A DNA stretch of 64,000 bases, taken from assembly GCA_903919125.1 (NCBI GenBank), contig CAIXGS010000076.1, positions 310,001-374,000 of the forward strand, read 5' to 3'. Source of the DNA: an uncultured Spartobacteria bacterium (GTDB lineage: Bacteria > Verrucomicrobiota > Verrucomicrobiia > Chthoniobacterales > Chthoniobacteraceae). Made by a program: the position numbers and the translations under genes. This document shows positions 43,681 through 50,000 of the stretch, piece by piece. Position 1 is the first letter of the stretch. Every line of letters starts with the position of its first letter. Under the pieces are notes generated by a model, which saw only the letters and a list, made by a program, of their open reading frames with translations, had not been told where the DNA came from and did no database searches.

Positions 43681-45249
43681 CTAGCGCGGACCACGTTGCG
43701 GTGCCCTCGTAGGGCGCTCGGTTTTAAATGCGGGTTTGTTCGCGACAGGACGTTCCCTGTTTCCCCCGTATTCCCGCTGCGGTCGGGCGCCCCGGTCCTG
43801 CCACTCGGGCCGTGGACCGTCAGAGCGATAACTGCGCGCTTCACGGCGCGGCTTTTCCCCGGAGTCACCGTGTTTCGGAGCGCGCGGCCCACCACTTGGA
43901 ACGACGTCAGCGCGAGAATCATTGTCTTGATTTGCGCCGGACGACTTTGCTCCAGTCGCCTTACGATGAGTGAGCAGGTGCAGAAGCGCCTCGATGACAA
44001 CCTCCGGTTCGGTACCGTCTGAAAGAAGCGCCTTCGCTCCAAAATGCGCTTTGGAAACGGTTCCGGTGGCGATGAGCGCACGGGCGGTTTCAACCAACAC
44101 CTCAATGCGCTTTTGGGCAGCTTCGGCGGGGGTGGGCATCCGCTCACGACGTATTTTAATTCGCGTGAGGCGGAAGATACGCTCCAGTGCAAACATCTCC
44201 CGTGGAGTCGCAAAGGAAATAGCACGCCCACTGCGTCCGGCACGTCCTGTGCGCCCGATTCGATGGACGTAGTCTTCCGGATCGCGTGGCAAATCATAGT
44301 TGAGAACCACCTCAATATCGTCCACATCAATACCACGTGCGGCAACATCGGTGGCCACAAGGAACTCCAGCTTGCGATCCCTGAAGCGACGCATCACGCG
44401 CTCGCGCATGGCCTGAGACATATCGCCGTGTAGACGATCTGCTTGGTACCCCTCCGCCACCAAATGCTCGGTGACTCCATCCACTGCATTTTTGGTGGAA
44501 CAAAAGATGATTCCAAAACGCAGGTTGGTTGCTTCCAAAACGCGGCAAAGCGCACCAATGCGCGAACCGTGGCCGACTTCAAAGTAGCACTGATCGATAT
44601 CCGGAGCGGCCTCTGCTCGGGTTTCAAGTCTGACCCACATCGGATTACTCGTGTAACGCTTGATGAGCTGTTCCACAGCCGAGGGCATCGTCGCGGAGAA
44701 AAACGCCGTCTGCCGCGCGGGCGGCGCCTGTTGCAAAATCGTTGCAATGTCATCCCGAAAACCCATGTCCAACATCCGGTCCGCCTCGTCTAAAATGACC
44801 ATTTTGATGGCGTCCAAACGCAACGATCCTCTATCCAAATGATCCATGATCCGCCCCGGAGTGCCCGCGATCACTTGCGCCCCATTTTCCAAGCCGCGAA
44901 ACTGCGCTCCGTAAGATGCCCCACCATAAATCGCGAGCTCCTTCACCCCTCGCTTAAAGGCGCTCAATTTGGCCACCTCACCCGCAACCTGCACGGCAAG
45001 TTCCCGAGTAGGGCAAAGGATAAGCACTTGCGGCGCCCCCAAGGAAGCATCGACGCATTCGACTGCGGGGATGGCAAAAGCAGCTGTCTTTCCTGATCCA
45101 GTACGAGAGAGGCCCGCTACATCCTTTCCAGATAGAAGTGCTGGAATAGTCGAGGCTTGGATCGGAGAGGCTTCTTCAAAGCCCATCTCTTTGACGGCTT
45201 TCAGCAACTCAGGTGAAAGGCCAAGATCAGAAAAAGAAACAGATTGCAT
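43681..45249 (-). CDS. DEAD-box RNA helicase
   Basis: A 522-residue RNA helicase. The Q motif region GFEEASPIQASTIPALLSG, motif I ARTGSGKT-type (LSRTGSGKTAAF), motif II VILDEADRMLDMGF, motif III SATMPS and motif VI HRIGRTGRAGRSGRAISF are all present. The core resembles RhlE/DeaD types. The last about 110 residues are Arg/Gly/Pro-rich and disordered, a usual RNA-binding tail. No DbpA-type domain is visible. I use the ATG at 45249; a GTG five codons earlier is possible. Roles in ribosome assembly or cold response are likely. Confidence 0.93.
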   Translation of the reverse strand: MQSVSFSDLGLSPELLKAVKEMGFEEASPIQASTIPALLSGKDVAGLSRTGSGKTAAFAIPAVECVDASLGAPQVLILCPTRELAVQVAGEVAKLSAFKRGVKELAIYGGASYGAQFRGLENGAQVIAGTPGRIMDHLDRGSLRLDAIKMVILDEADRMLDMGFRDDIATILQQAPPARQTAFFSATMPSAVEQLIKRYTSNPMWVRLETRAEAAPDIDQCYFEVGHGSRIGALCRVLEATNLRFGIIFCSTKNAVDGVTEHLVAEGYQADRLHGDMSQAMRERVMRRFRDRKLEFLVATDVAARGIDVDDIEVVLNYDLPRDPEDYVHRIGRTGRAGRSGRAISFATPREMFALERIFRLTRIKIRRERMPTPAEAAQKRIEVLVETARALIATGTVSKAHFGAKALLSDGTEPEVVIEALLHLLTHRKATGAKSSGANQDNDSRADVVPSGGPRAPKHGDSGEKPRREARSYRSDGPRPEWQDRGARPQREYGGNRERPVANKPAFKTERPTRAPQRGPR

Positions 45250-45339
45250 CAAGGCTTTTCGCACGAGGCGTCACAGAAGGCGATTCCTTTCGCATCAACC
45301 TCAATCAGTGAAACGTTTGTCAGGACACTTTGAAAAGGT

Positions 45340-45729
45340 TCAGCAAACTTTCATGAGCCAAAATCCAGCCGACAACACAGCACCCGCCGCATAGCTCAGA
45401 ACGTCGCCCAAATCGGCTGTTCCCAAGTGGAAAAACCGAGGAAAAACCCACTCAAAAAGTAACGGCCACACCAGTGTCCACTCCAAAACTTCAGATGCCG
45501 TGGGCATCCCGTCGTGAGTACGGAGTCCTAACTTCCGGAAAATCCAGAGTAAAGGGGGCAACGCGACTGGGATCAGCAAGCAATCGTTGAAATGGTCGTG
45601 CAAAAACGGGGACGCAGCTCCAAAACGCGGCTTCAACCACCAGCGATTCAGCGCGTAAAGTATCACCGCCCCCGAAAACAAGGAATCCGCAAGATAACGA
45701 AACCTGCGCGATTGTTCGGCTAGAGCCAT
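45340..45729 (-). CDS. Small integral membrane protein, N-terminus derived from nuclease relic
   Basis: A 129-residue protein with about three membrane segments (SLFSGAVILYALN, FNDCLLIPVALPPLLWIF, and DVLSYAAGAVLSAGFWLM) and a conserved-looking loop (RTHDGMPTASEVLEWTLVW). I recall similar proteins as hypothetical membrane proteins with a VanZ-like layout, without known function. The first residues (MALAEQSRR) match the nuclease relic immediately upstream (MTLAEQWRQ in the intact copy). The original start may therefore be lost or further inside; the ATG at 45729 is the best available. Confidence 0.65.
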   Translation of the reverse strand: MALAEQSRRFRYLADSLFSGAVILYALNRWWLKPRFGAASPFLHDHFNDCLLIPVALPPLLWIFRKLGLRTHDGMPTASEVLEWTLVWPLLFEWVFPRFFHLGTADLGDVLSYAAGAVLSAGFWLMKVC

Positions 45730-45868
45730 CGCTATTTTCTTTAGAGTTCTCGTTGTGAAGACCATCGAGCCCTGGACGAAGGGCGCTTGTGTCGAGCCCT
45801 CTCACCGTGATGTAACGGAAAAGTCGTTCCACGGAACATTTTTGAACAGGACAACGAGCCTGCCTCAA
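45709..45868 (-). pseudogene. Decayed partial copy of the Rpn-type nuclease gene
   Basis: The minus strand encodes SVERLFRYITVRGLDTSAL and LHNENSKE in one frame, then KKIAMALAEQ in another. The intact neighbour reads AVERLFRYISARDIDRNAF, FHNKNLKEKAMTLAEQWRQ in one frame. The DNA aligns over about 130 bases (45709-45838 with 46089-46222), with a frameshift. It is a truncated C-terminal segment, cut off where the membrane protein gene begins. Confidence 0.8.
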
Positions 45869-46842
45869 GCCTCGATATGTGAGGCGAAGTCTTCTAGCGA
45901 GGGCGATTTCAGCGCATGGAGGAGAAGACTTCTCAGCTTAGCGAGGCTTCGTTCCCGTTGAATTTTTTCCGCCAGACCTTCTGGAACGCGACCATAGCGA
46001 ACCTCCAGAACATCGATGACAGACTGTTGGGCCTGCTCACGACCCTCTTCTCTGCCTTTCTCCATGCCTTCTTCCATTCCTTCTTGGCGCCATTGTTCAG
46101 CAAGAGTCATCGCTTTTTCCTTTAGGTTTTTGTTGTGAAAACTATTGAGCGTTTCTCGAAAGGCGTTTCTGTCGATATCTCTGGCGCTGATGTAACGAAA
46201 AAGTCGCTCCACAGCACTCTCGCTTGCGCTTAGGAGTAGGATCTCATCAAAAACCATCGCATGCAACAGTTCTCCCAGCGCGTCAGCACGCAAAGCGCGC
46301 ATCGAAAGCACTCCGGCAGCCGAGCCGCGCATTTCCTCGTAGCCAAGGGAAACTAGTTGGATGAGTTCAAACGTGAAGTCTGGAGTGTGTGCCGGTGACG
46401 CTCCCTGCCCAAACAACGGCGAAAAACGGGGTTCTGTCCGCCAAGGTTCACTGCTTTGAGCGAGAACCACCGGAATGATGGGCGATAGAAACGGCTTTTG
46501 CTTGGAGGCGAGGTTATTGGCACGTTGCCTTTCCCAAATCTTCACCATGTAACTCAGCAGACGCAACGCCATCCATGGGTCTTCCCGACTTTGATGTTCG
46601 AAGAGGATGTAGATGAACGCCTCGCCAGACTCAGACGAAACGCTAAAAAGCAAGTCACTCTCTGAACCGGTCAGCTCCGAATCAATGAAACTGCCCGGTT
46701 GTTGACGGAGAGTACTCCAGTCCAGCGAAGTAACGAGATCAGCCGCCAGATAGTTTTGAAAAAAAGCGACTGCATTTTCGAGCTCTGAGAAAGTCGAACG
46801 AAAGAGTTTGTCGTTGGGTTGATGGACGGGGTGCTCGGCCAT
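45865..46842 (-). CDS. Rpn-family PD-(D/E)XK nuclease/transposase-like protein
   Basis: A 325-residue protein of the recombination-promoting nuclease (RpnA/transposase_31) group. The N-terminus has HQPNDKLFRSTFSELENAV. The nuclease core has Asp63 (SESDLLFSV) and Glu82/Gln84 (YILFEHQSREDPWMALRLL), followed by SYMVKIWERQ. The C-terminus has the repetitive Glu/Gly helix EGMEEGMEKGREEGREQAQ and a closing region YGRVPEGLAEKIQ. E. coli Rpn proteins cleave DNA and promote recombination or act in phage defence. I start it at the ATG at 46842; the longer open frame upstream reads as non-coding. A truncated copy lies just downstream. Confidence 0.87.
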   Translation of the reverse strand: MAEHPVHQPNDKLFRSTFSELENAVAFFQNYLAADLVTSLDWSTLRQQPGSFIDSELTGSESDLLFSVSSESGEAFIYILFEHQSREDPWMALRLLSYMVKIWERQRANNLASKQKPFLSPIIPVVLAQSSEPWRTEPRFSPLFGQGASPAHTPDFTFELIQLVSLGYEEMRGSAAGVLSMRALRADALGELLHAMVFDEILLLSASESAVERLFRYISARDIDRNAFRETLNSFHNKNLKEKAMTLAEQWRQEGMEEGMEKGREEGREQAQQSVIDVLEVRYGRVPEGLAEKIQRERSLAKLRSLLLHALKSPSLEDFASHIEA

Positions 46843-47078
46843 GGCAATGCAGGGGGCGGGAGCACCGAACTCGCATCGGAGCCGTCCACCAACTAGGATT
46901 CGCGATTCCCTGCGAGGCTGGGTTATCAATTGGGCAAAAAAGTCGGCGGAAACGCGTCCGTGTCCGCGCAGATCGCCGTTGCTACGGACCTCCATTCCTG
47001 AGCGTTTGTCTCTTTCCTGCACATCGCTTACACTCTAGGGTTCGAGTCGCCAGCAAACCCTCCCACGACGTAATAAAC

Positions 47079-50000
47079 ATGTCGCCTATTCTTGAAAGTC
47101 TCCGCCGCGAACTCCGCGAGCGCGTCCGAGACGCCTGGCAACGCTTGCCGCTGGTGCATCGGTTGCTTCATTCCGTCCAATTTGTCGCACGCCGTCTTGC
47201 ACGTAGACCACGAACGGTTACGGAAAGTCCGAACCTTCTTCCGCTACTTATTCAAGTTCTAGCCGCCTTTTCCAAAGGGGGCGCCTCTGTGCTGCAGGAG
47301 GAAATCGACTCCTCCTTAGGCTTTCTGCGCCATGACTTTCCCGAGGCAGTCTATTCAGAACTACGCCAACTTTTCCGGCACGCATTGCAAGAACAGCACG
47401 ATCTCGGTGCGATGGCGCAGAAGCTCTCCGCCCAACTTGATACGGACCAAAAAATCATGCTTGGAGTGCAGCTTTACGACCTCATTGCACGGGCTGGAAT
47501 GGATCGGAGGCAGTTGGTCGAATTCTATTCCTTCATGACGCAATTGGGGATGGCTGCGCAGGCGATCGACATCGTTTACCAACTCAGCTCCAGCGACACG
47601 CCAGATCCTTCGGTATACCAAAGCGGTTCCTCGCCGCTGGAGTGCGTCAGCTTCGGTGCATCGGGCAGCAGAGAGGACGTCGGCTTGAAGAGCTTACACG
47701 AGGCTGAACGCATGCTGGCGTTTCGGTACCACGAACTGTTGCTGCTAAAAAACATCTCGGCACCAAATATCACGGTACGAGGGCGGCCGCTAAAGCCTGG
47801 CGATTTTTGCCGAATCTACTCAGGGCAACGCACATTACTTGGAGAAGAAGTCCTTAGCTATCAAGAGCTTGCGTACTACTTTAACGCCAAGAAGAACGTT
47901 TCACTCACGCAGATCTACCTCTGTTTGGACAACTTAGGGGAACTCGAATTGCAGCGCGAGAAGTCGCGGGACAGCTCCATTGAAGTGCGCTTTGGACTGA
48001 AGGTACAGGTGCGAGCCATCAAAACATCCAATGTGCATTTGAACGGCGTCCACCTCACGGCCAACACCGTGCTTGAGGCCGGACTGGATGACAGGCTCGT
48101 CTTCGACGCAGATTCAGAACTGCCGCTCAGCGACTTGCGCCGCCGCGCGAGAGCTCTCGGAGGACGATTTCAACTCAAGACTTACAAAGCGAGTTACCTC
48201 GTTTCCAACAACCCGTCTCTCCTCGATGTGGACGACATTTTGCTCTCCCCCGGAACCGGTGGGGAGGTGTTGTTTCGCATCCTTTGCGATTACGACCACC
48301 GGGTAGGAACCTTGGAAATTCTACACGCAGACCGCCCTCTGCAAGTGGGCGAGCAGGTCCTTTCGGTAGGCAGCAGATGCGCACTGCAAGACGGCGCGAC
48401 CATTAGGTTGGATGCTGGCCAGGTTTTGCGTTGTGATTTTTCGGAGCGAATCATTGAGGAGGAACGCAACGTAATCTCGACCTTGGAGGTGCGCGATTTA
48501 ACGTACCGCTTCCGCAAAAATCTCACGGCACTGGACGCGTTGTCCTTCAGCGTGAGTCGCGGCGAGATGGTTTGCGTGATGGGTGCTAGCGGTTCGGGAA
48601 AATCCACACTGCTACGCGCGATTGGAGGCCAGTTGCATCCCACTGAAGGTCAGGTACTTCTTAATGGCCAACAGCTTTATTCGGACCTCGACACGCTCAA
48701 ACGTTTTGTCACCTACATCCCGCAGGACGACGCTTTTGACGATTACCTCACCATCGAGGAAAACATGGAATTCGCCGCCGCGATCCGCTCTCCTCACCTC
48801 TCAAAGCGCGATAGGGCGCGCCGCGTGGAAGGGAAACTCGTGGAACTCGGACTAGCCGAGCGGCGGGATTCCGTAGTGGGCAGCACGGTGAAGAAGATGC
48901 TTTCAGGCGGTGAACGAAAGCGGCTGAACATCGGACTGGATATGTTATCCTCGGCGGATGTCTTTCTGTTTGATGAACCTACAAGCGGACTTTCCTCAAA
49001 GGATTCCGAGCATGTCCTCGAAATTCTACGTGGAATGGTTCATAACAAAATCATTCTGGTGACGCTCCATCAGCCGACTTCCAAGCTTTTCCAAATGTTC
49101 ACCAAGGCGCTGCTGCTGGACAAAGGCGGACGGTTGGCGTTTTACGGGACGCCTCAGGAAATGCTGTCGTACTTCGCTGAGGCCGAACACGAGCAGCAGT
49201 TTGGCGCTGAACTGGGTGGGTGCCCGGCGTGCGGCACCACGCGGCCGGAGTTTATTTTCGATGTACTCGAAACTCCATTACGCGACCTGAGCGGCGACAT
49301 TATTTACGAGGAAAATAACAGGGGCCAACTCGTTCCGGCGCGCAGGTTTTCGGCTGACTTCTGGCAGGATCGCTATGATCGCTTCCGGTTGTTGCAGGAA
49401 ATGAAGCAGGTCAATGTTAAGGAGAGCGCGCAGGTAGCGCCTCAACCAACGCCGCTTGTGGCGCAAAACCGGCGATTAAAACTACGGGAGGAGTGGGGGC
49501 AGTTGCGCACGCTTTGGAAGCGTTCGTTCACGTCCAAACTGCGTAACAGAGGCAATATGATTCTCACCGTGCTGGTTCCCCCGGCACTTGCAGCGGTCAT
49601 CGGCTGGGCGTTGTATTTCACCAAAGACGAGTCAGGCTCCTATGACTTTTCGAGCGCGTTCCACATTCCCACCTACATATTCATCTCACTGCTGGTGGCG
49701 ATGTTTCTAGCACTAGTGAGCAGCGTGGATGACATCATTCGAGATCGGGTACTGCTCAACCGCGAGCGGAATTTAACGGTGCGTCTTCCGTTTTACATTC
49801 TCGCAAAACTCGGAACCTTGAGTTTGTTCAGCGCGGTGCAATGCGCACTTTTCGTCGCGGTGGGAAACTCCATTTTGGAAGTCAGAGGGATGTTTTTCCC
49901 GTACTGGTATTTCATGTTTATCACCGCGCTAAGCGGTCTCACACTCGGTCTATTAGTCTCTTCACTAGCGAGTTCTAGCAAGATGGCGGCGAACTTTGTT

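Follow-up and report, generated by a model that had tools for sequence, protein, structure and literature searches.

The closest described systems are the Rpn genes treated by Zhong et al. 2023 (PMC10327210), which, according to the portions of that paper dealing with the internal start, yield a separate C-terminal antitoxin, RpnS, by initiation inside the gene. In E. coli RpnA the combined changes K240R, E241D and M244L abolished RpnS, M244 being the start and K240/E241 the codons of the ribosome binding site; the RpnS layout also includes a variable number of 4-aa repeats located 8-20 residues after the internal Met (PMC10327210). The same portions of the paper report partial rpnS copies downstream of E. 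coli rpnE/ypaA and rpnC, each grouping with its own gene, as well as tandem rpn arrays generated by direct duplication and loss of copies by deletion (PMC10327210). In Kingston et al. 2017 (PMC5350276), the passages on E. coli RpnA give D11, D63, E82, Q84 and R94 as the positions at which this protein was mutated.

Here we describe an rpn locus within a 64,000-nucleotide stretch of DNA (the window) from an uncultured Spartobacteria bacterium, where a partial rpn copy stands between an intact rpn gene and a small hydrophobic protein gene.

The intact rpn gene and its predicted internal start

The intact gene (45865..46842, minus strand) encodes a 325-aa Rpn nuclease (RpnL; protein P0001), assigned by its profile match and conserved columns; it matched PF04754 with an E value of 4.5e-40 and 137.8 bits (curated cut-off 21), and TIGR01784 with 67.1 bits (cut-off 52.1). 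At E. coli RpnA numbering the PD-(D/E)XK residues D11, D63, E82 and Q84 are all kept, together with R94, and they were invariant among the 28-29 of the 31 rpn copies under comparison that cover them. Those 31 copies, which are among the best matches listed, come from the window's own genus (28) and from another genus of the family (3, genome G013); each was included on the basis of one match spanning residues 215-262, with a protein that was not a repeat, and partial copies, such as one of genome G009 that stops at residue 222, were excluded. Matches to rpn were found in 12 of the 34 genomes examined, the window's own included, and the latter holds 15 matches to the Rpn protein, whole and partial. 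Its nearest full-length paralog of the window rpn is located on contig C78.

Positions 6-256 of the RpnA profile align with residues 6-257 of P0001, so that M244 of RpnA corresponds to Met245 here, a correspondence at the profile level and not a residue-level alignment with RpnA. Met245 is the first residue of the predicted RpnS antitoxin frame (45865..46110, minus strand; MTLAEQWRQEGMEEGMEKGREEGREQ...), which is based on the conservation of this Met and on the published layout. It was invariant in all of the rpn copies spanning the site (31/31), with variable surroundings upstream, and it is followed by ACA in 26/31 copies and by CTC in 24/30. These two codons, 246 and 247, rank top in synonymous conservation over the 106 sites with well-conserved residues, and 7th and 8th of 261 sites when that filter is dropped. 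Moreover, the codon table shows an AAAGGAA motif 6 nt before the internal ATG (46117..46123, minus strand; codons 240-242), in the place taken in E. coli RpnA by the ribosome binding site codons K240/E241, as these are described in the relevant part of PMC10327210; AAGGA before the internal ATG is shared by the window copy and two others (3/31) and absent from the remainder. About 10 residues past Met245 begin the 4-aa repeats GMEE/GMEK/GREE/GREQ, whose number differs among copies. Very long runs of such repeats (GISQ/GLSQ) occur at a different locus (L100 768-1620, G003:C1), in C-terminal pieces of rpn that lie in tandem close to the end of a contig.

The best explanation of these features is that the window rpn is a nuclease toxin of the RpnL/RpnS type with a predicted intragenic antitoxin. 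The conservation of the internal start site, together with what PMC10327210 reports for E. coli and C. difficile, leads us to expect that this site would work in the window rpn. The layout with an internal start, as described in both species, may hence extend to this family of Verrucomicrobiota, where it is accompanied by DNA-level conservation directly after the start codon.

A partial rpn copy heads the membrane protein gene

The original prediction of a partial rpn duplicate carrying a frameshift was borne out by a repeat search and by gapped alignment. The duplicate, hereafter the relic (45706..45837, minus strand), repeats rpn codons ~209-252 in diverged form, and a 1-nt indel near 45745 shifts its frame. 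The repeat search returned a direct repeat (45735-45837 / 46115-46217) with 73% identity over 103 nt and a spacing of 380, and the gapped alignment of 45706-45837 with 46087-46217 extended over 132 columns with a single 1-nt indel and a score of 68.5. As 1000 dinucleotide-preserving shuffles gave a mean of 13.0 (sd 1.6) and a maximum of 21, chance similarity was ruled out. When the alignment is ended at 45709, 97 of 127 columns are identical; at the protein level the relic matches nuclease residues 208-244 (E 7.4e-5). Its differences from rpn are evenly spread over the codon positions (11/8/10, of 42 each), indicating a piece without coding constraint. The relic holds no complete antitoxin frame beyond the start: counted from the ATG at 45729, the similarity to rpn lasts for eight codons, to 45706. 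Between the end of the rpn stop and the relic there are 27 bases, including a 20-nt rpn 3' flank (45845..45864, minus strand) that aligns with similar sequence 3' of the C78 paralog and is then cut off.

The position of the match was as proposed, its extent being 132 bp; its description as nuclease C-terminal region needs correcting, given that the copied stretch precedes and includes the start of the antitoxin domain and does not take in the C-terminus. A local origin is favoured and not proved: the relic is 76.4% identical to the window rpn versus 74.2% to the C78 gene, and at the 20 sites where these two genes differ it agrees with the window at 13, with C78 at 1 and with neither at 6. Considering the invariance of Met245 and the conservation of the next two codons, the initiation site of RpnS was most likely included in the duplicated piece.

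A DNA search of 56 other genomes at E<=0.001, of a type that would miss diverged relics, gave no match to the relic, and in the own genome no second copy was listed by a DNA search that also failed to list the 76% identical intact gene. Since such searches are insensitive to a 76% copy, comparing protein heads is the better test for a relic in relatives. A transposable element was also considered and discarded, as terminal inverted repeats were looked for in 45000-47500 and no inverted repeats were reported there.

Downstream of the relic lies an ORF for a small hydrophobic protein, P0002 (45340..45729, minus strand; MALAEQSRRFRYLAD...), with relatives in 15 other genomes (homologues in 16 of 57 genomes, own included). 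We refer to it as the membrane gene on account of two modest hydrophobic stretches; profile searches of P0002 against Pfam and NCBIfam gave no match. Its ATG (45727..45729, minus strand), preceded by AAAGAAAATAGCG, is the aligned counterpart of nuclease Met245 (46110), and the first residues of the protein, MALAEQS, are supplied by the relic, in agreement with the proposed derivation of the neighbour's first codons. The purine stretch of the relic, AAAGAAAA, is without the GG of the intact copy.

The relatives, compared for the same start without a relic, did not share it: the MALAEQ head occurs in 0 of 15. Similarity to P0002 sets in at residue 16-22 in 12 of them and at residue 6-12, in unlike sequence, in the other 3; four further named loci align from residue 22. 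The relic head appears to have replaced the membrane gene's own start, and the ATG of the neighbour most likely descends from the RpnS start, as read from these alignments. We infer that the ATG at 45729 is the one used in the cell.

Gene order in related genomes

We compared the junction with G009, the closest relative of the own genome. The similarity of G009 contig C8 to the window DNA is 85.6% up to 45708 with none beyond, and the rpn similarity of the relic ends at 45706, so that the two overlap by 3 nt (45706..45708); the junction is a rearrangement breakpoint between genomes, in line with the recombination junction of the original prediction. Two points go beyond that prediction, namely the likely internal RpnS start inside the copied piece and the fact that the junction is also an inter-genome breakpoint.

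The membrane gene of G009 could start at either of two ATGs, located 9 and 36 nt beyond the point matching 45708. In G009, G004 and G010 this gene forms a divergent pair with X, a beta-helix protein gene. X was not found beside the membrane gene in the stretches read of G001, G003 and G005, nor within the 1.5-5 kb read at 7 membrane-gene loci outside the genus, and for G002 and G011 fewer than 530 bases upstream of the membrane gene were covered in this comparison. The gene order of G009 would be the ancestral one, a reading that rests on G009 and the close pair G004/G010, as X is absent from beside the membrane gene in G001, G003 and G005.

In the own genome X is located on contig C73, adjoined by an rpn N-terminus that breaks off at codon 103 and by its 5' flank, both oriented as they would be if an rpn had come between the membrane gene and X. 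C73 becomes similar to G009 again 9 nt outside the outer candidate ATG, and 44 bp holding the candidate starts of G009 are missing between the two junctions, which lie on different contigs. With X on another contig beside the 5' end of an rpn, there is rpn DNA on both sides of the break.

On its other side the window rpn has an ABC gene as upstream neighbour. The rpn 5' flank (46843..46992, minus strand), as aligned with related flanks, has relatives before rpn on C73 and on G009:C75, and also beside the ABC gene of G009, which is without rpn; sequence of this type (window 46843-46992; L087 14821-14905; L084 6776-6867) is found downstream of the C78 rpn as well. The region upstream of ABC was read in 8 other genomes; none of them has rpn or the membrane gene beside ABC, and in 5 of these 8 the neighbour is an M41-peptidase gene. 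The M41-peptidase gene is located elsewhere on the same contig in the own genome and is also apart from ABC in G009; judging by this displacement in both, a change on the ABC side probably preceded the event at the membrane gene. In our reading, the rpn next to ABC is the older one, and a newer exchange involved an rpn at the membrane/X site. A reciprocal product of such an exchange was not found, the other side of the G009 ABC gene matching the own genome by 61, 73 and 43 bp only. An excisable cassette bounded by a direct repeat flanking rpn was also considered; it was dropped because the C73 flank matched just itself and one place in the own genome at E<=0.1, and the aligned flanks are alike only in part.

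Origin of the junction

We favour, as the somewhat more probable history, a tandem duplication followed by an illegitimate join that fused the RpnS start to the membrane gene. It builds on the repeat, the altered head, the breakpoint, the differing gene order of relatives and the invariant internal Met. A segment of rpn that begins at codon ~209 and runs slightly beyond the stop would have been duplicated in tandem, leaving downstream a piece that holds the rpnS start, like those downstream of E. coli rpnC and rpnE. A second, illegitimate join would then have deleted the antitoxin body of the duplicate along with the region in which the membrane gene formerly started, fusing relic and gene in such a way that the RpnS initiation site of the relic may have become the start MALAEQS. 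Duplication and deletion are preferred on account of the ~20 nt of rpn 3' flank left before the relic and of the 13:1 agreement in sites; the 20-nt remnant is what a tandem duplication from codon ~209 to 20 nt past the stop would leave. As they do not explain the neighbour on the ABC side, a further exchange is needed: the membrane/X neighbourhood would also have been broken in the own lineage, pointing to exchange between dispersed rpn copies. The order of events, the exchange between rpn copies and any role of the nuclease are what we infer from this arrangement.

The relic might instead be what is left of another rpn, one that had come in between X and the membrane gene, was truncated at codon ~252 at its contact with the membrane gene and was later joined to the full rpn. 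The rpn N-terminus and 5' flank on the X side of C73, oriented as a single insertion would have it, fit this history; the C73 copy cannot be compared over the relic because of its cut at codon 103. However, the relic is nearer to the window rpn than to C78, by overall identity and by the 13:1 count of sites, and we consider the insertion rather unlikely. An error of assembly, joining rpn, relic and membrane gene, or rpn and ABC, across rpn repeats, would be suggested by the 87-contig assembly, in which 6 of the 15 rpn matches are at contig ends, and by the 8 genomes without rpn or membrane gene beside ABC; nevertheless, the DNA identity of the window gene with its nearest copies is only 86% (C73) and 80% (C78), which we judge too distant for a misjoin, and G009 independently has sequence resembling the rpn flank beside its ABC gene, making an error very improbable.

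A different issue is whether the fusion is real but silent, with another start codon in use or the gene disused, which would be compatible with tandem duplication and deletion as the origin. A further in-frame ATG for P0002 at 45765, the weak purine stretch in front of the 45729 ATG and the lack of a sigma-70-like promoter within 45600-46500 speak for silence; on the contrary, the frame is open and its protein is 80% identical to that of G009. Silence is a serious option, if not the one we expect.

Pieces of rpn at other loci were also inspected. Many apparent C-terminal orphans proved to be genes cut by contig ends, thus only pieces beginning inside a contig are cited as stand-alone frames. 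One of them (G000:C31:19936-20196; L109 937-1197), a candidate solo antitoxin, shows rpn similarity from 7 residues before the conserved MTLAD, and another (G006:C220:145-390) from 12 residues before the same Met, and both fit the mechanism proposed above. Two solo frames, that of G000:C31 included, had no Pfam match when tested, a point against it.

Other arrangements of rpn pieces were seen as well. At G000:C76:27080-27455 (L110 1081-1456) there is a 3' part of rpn with the nuclease portion frameshifted and the antitoxin portion open, which likewise fits. At G009:C75 (L085 6675-7659) an rpn is immediately preceded by the final ~40 codons of another one, a shrunken tandem pair. On G001:C113 (L095 1-2006) a whole rpn has two C-terminal pieces upstream of it; the contig start truncates the first, and a TAG interrupts the antitoxin part of the second, which counts against the proposed mechanism.

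Comparison with described rpn loci

The E. coli K-12 Rpn (YhgA-like) proteins, as presented in the parts of PMC5350276 that concern them, belong to the same family as the window Rpn and have D11, D63, E82, Q84 and R94 at the same numbers; promotion of recombination was measured for them, whereas the window rpn is linked to recombination by its association with a breakpoint only. The locus places dispersed rpn copies at a genome breakpoint. In the portions of PMC10327210 on RpnL/RpnS of E. coli, the internal Met stands at the position corresponding to that of the window rpn and is likewise followed by 4-aa repeats.

More generally, partial rpn duplications may act as portable translation-start modules: the internal RpnS start, whose continued activity is needed to hold the toxin in check, could be captured by any gene brought adjacent by a later deletion. 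We regard this generalization as speculative and doubtful; if true, the membrane protein may come under antitoxin-type expression. The window would in any case keep a trace of an intragenic antitoxin start copied out of its toxin gene and apparently reused.

Among the papers listed by searches of the open-licence PMC literature, supplements apart, none described the adoption of an RpnS start by an unrelated gene, and this is apparently what is new here. Tandem rpn arrays, as covered in the sections of PMC10327210 on duplication, have adjacent direct copies in common with the window; here, in contrast, 132 bp of the second copy are left and the locus is a rearrangement breakpoint. With E. coli rpnE/ypaA and rpnC, as described in that part of PMC10327210, the window shares a partial copy directly downstream of rpn that groups with its own gene; unlike the E. 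coli copies, this one has lost the antitoxin body, and the initiation region alone heads an unrelated protein.
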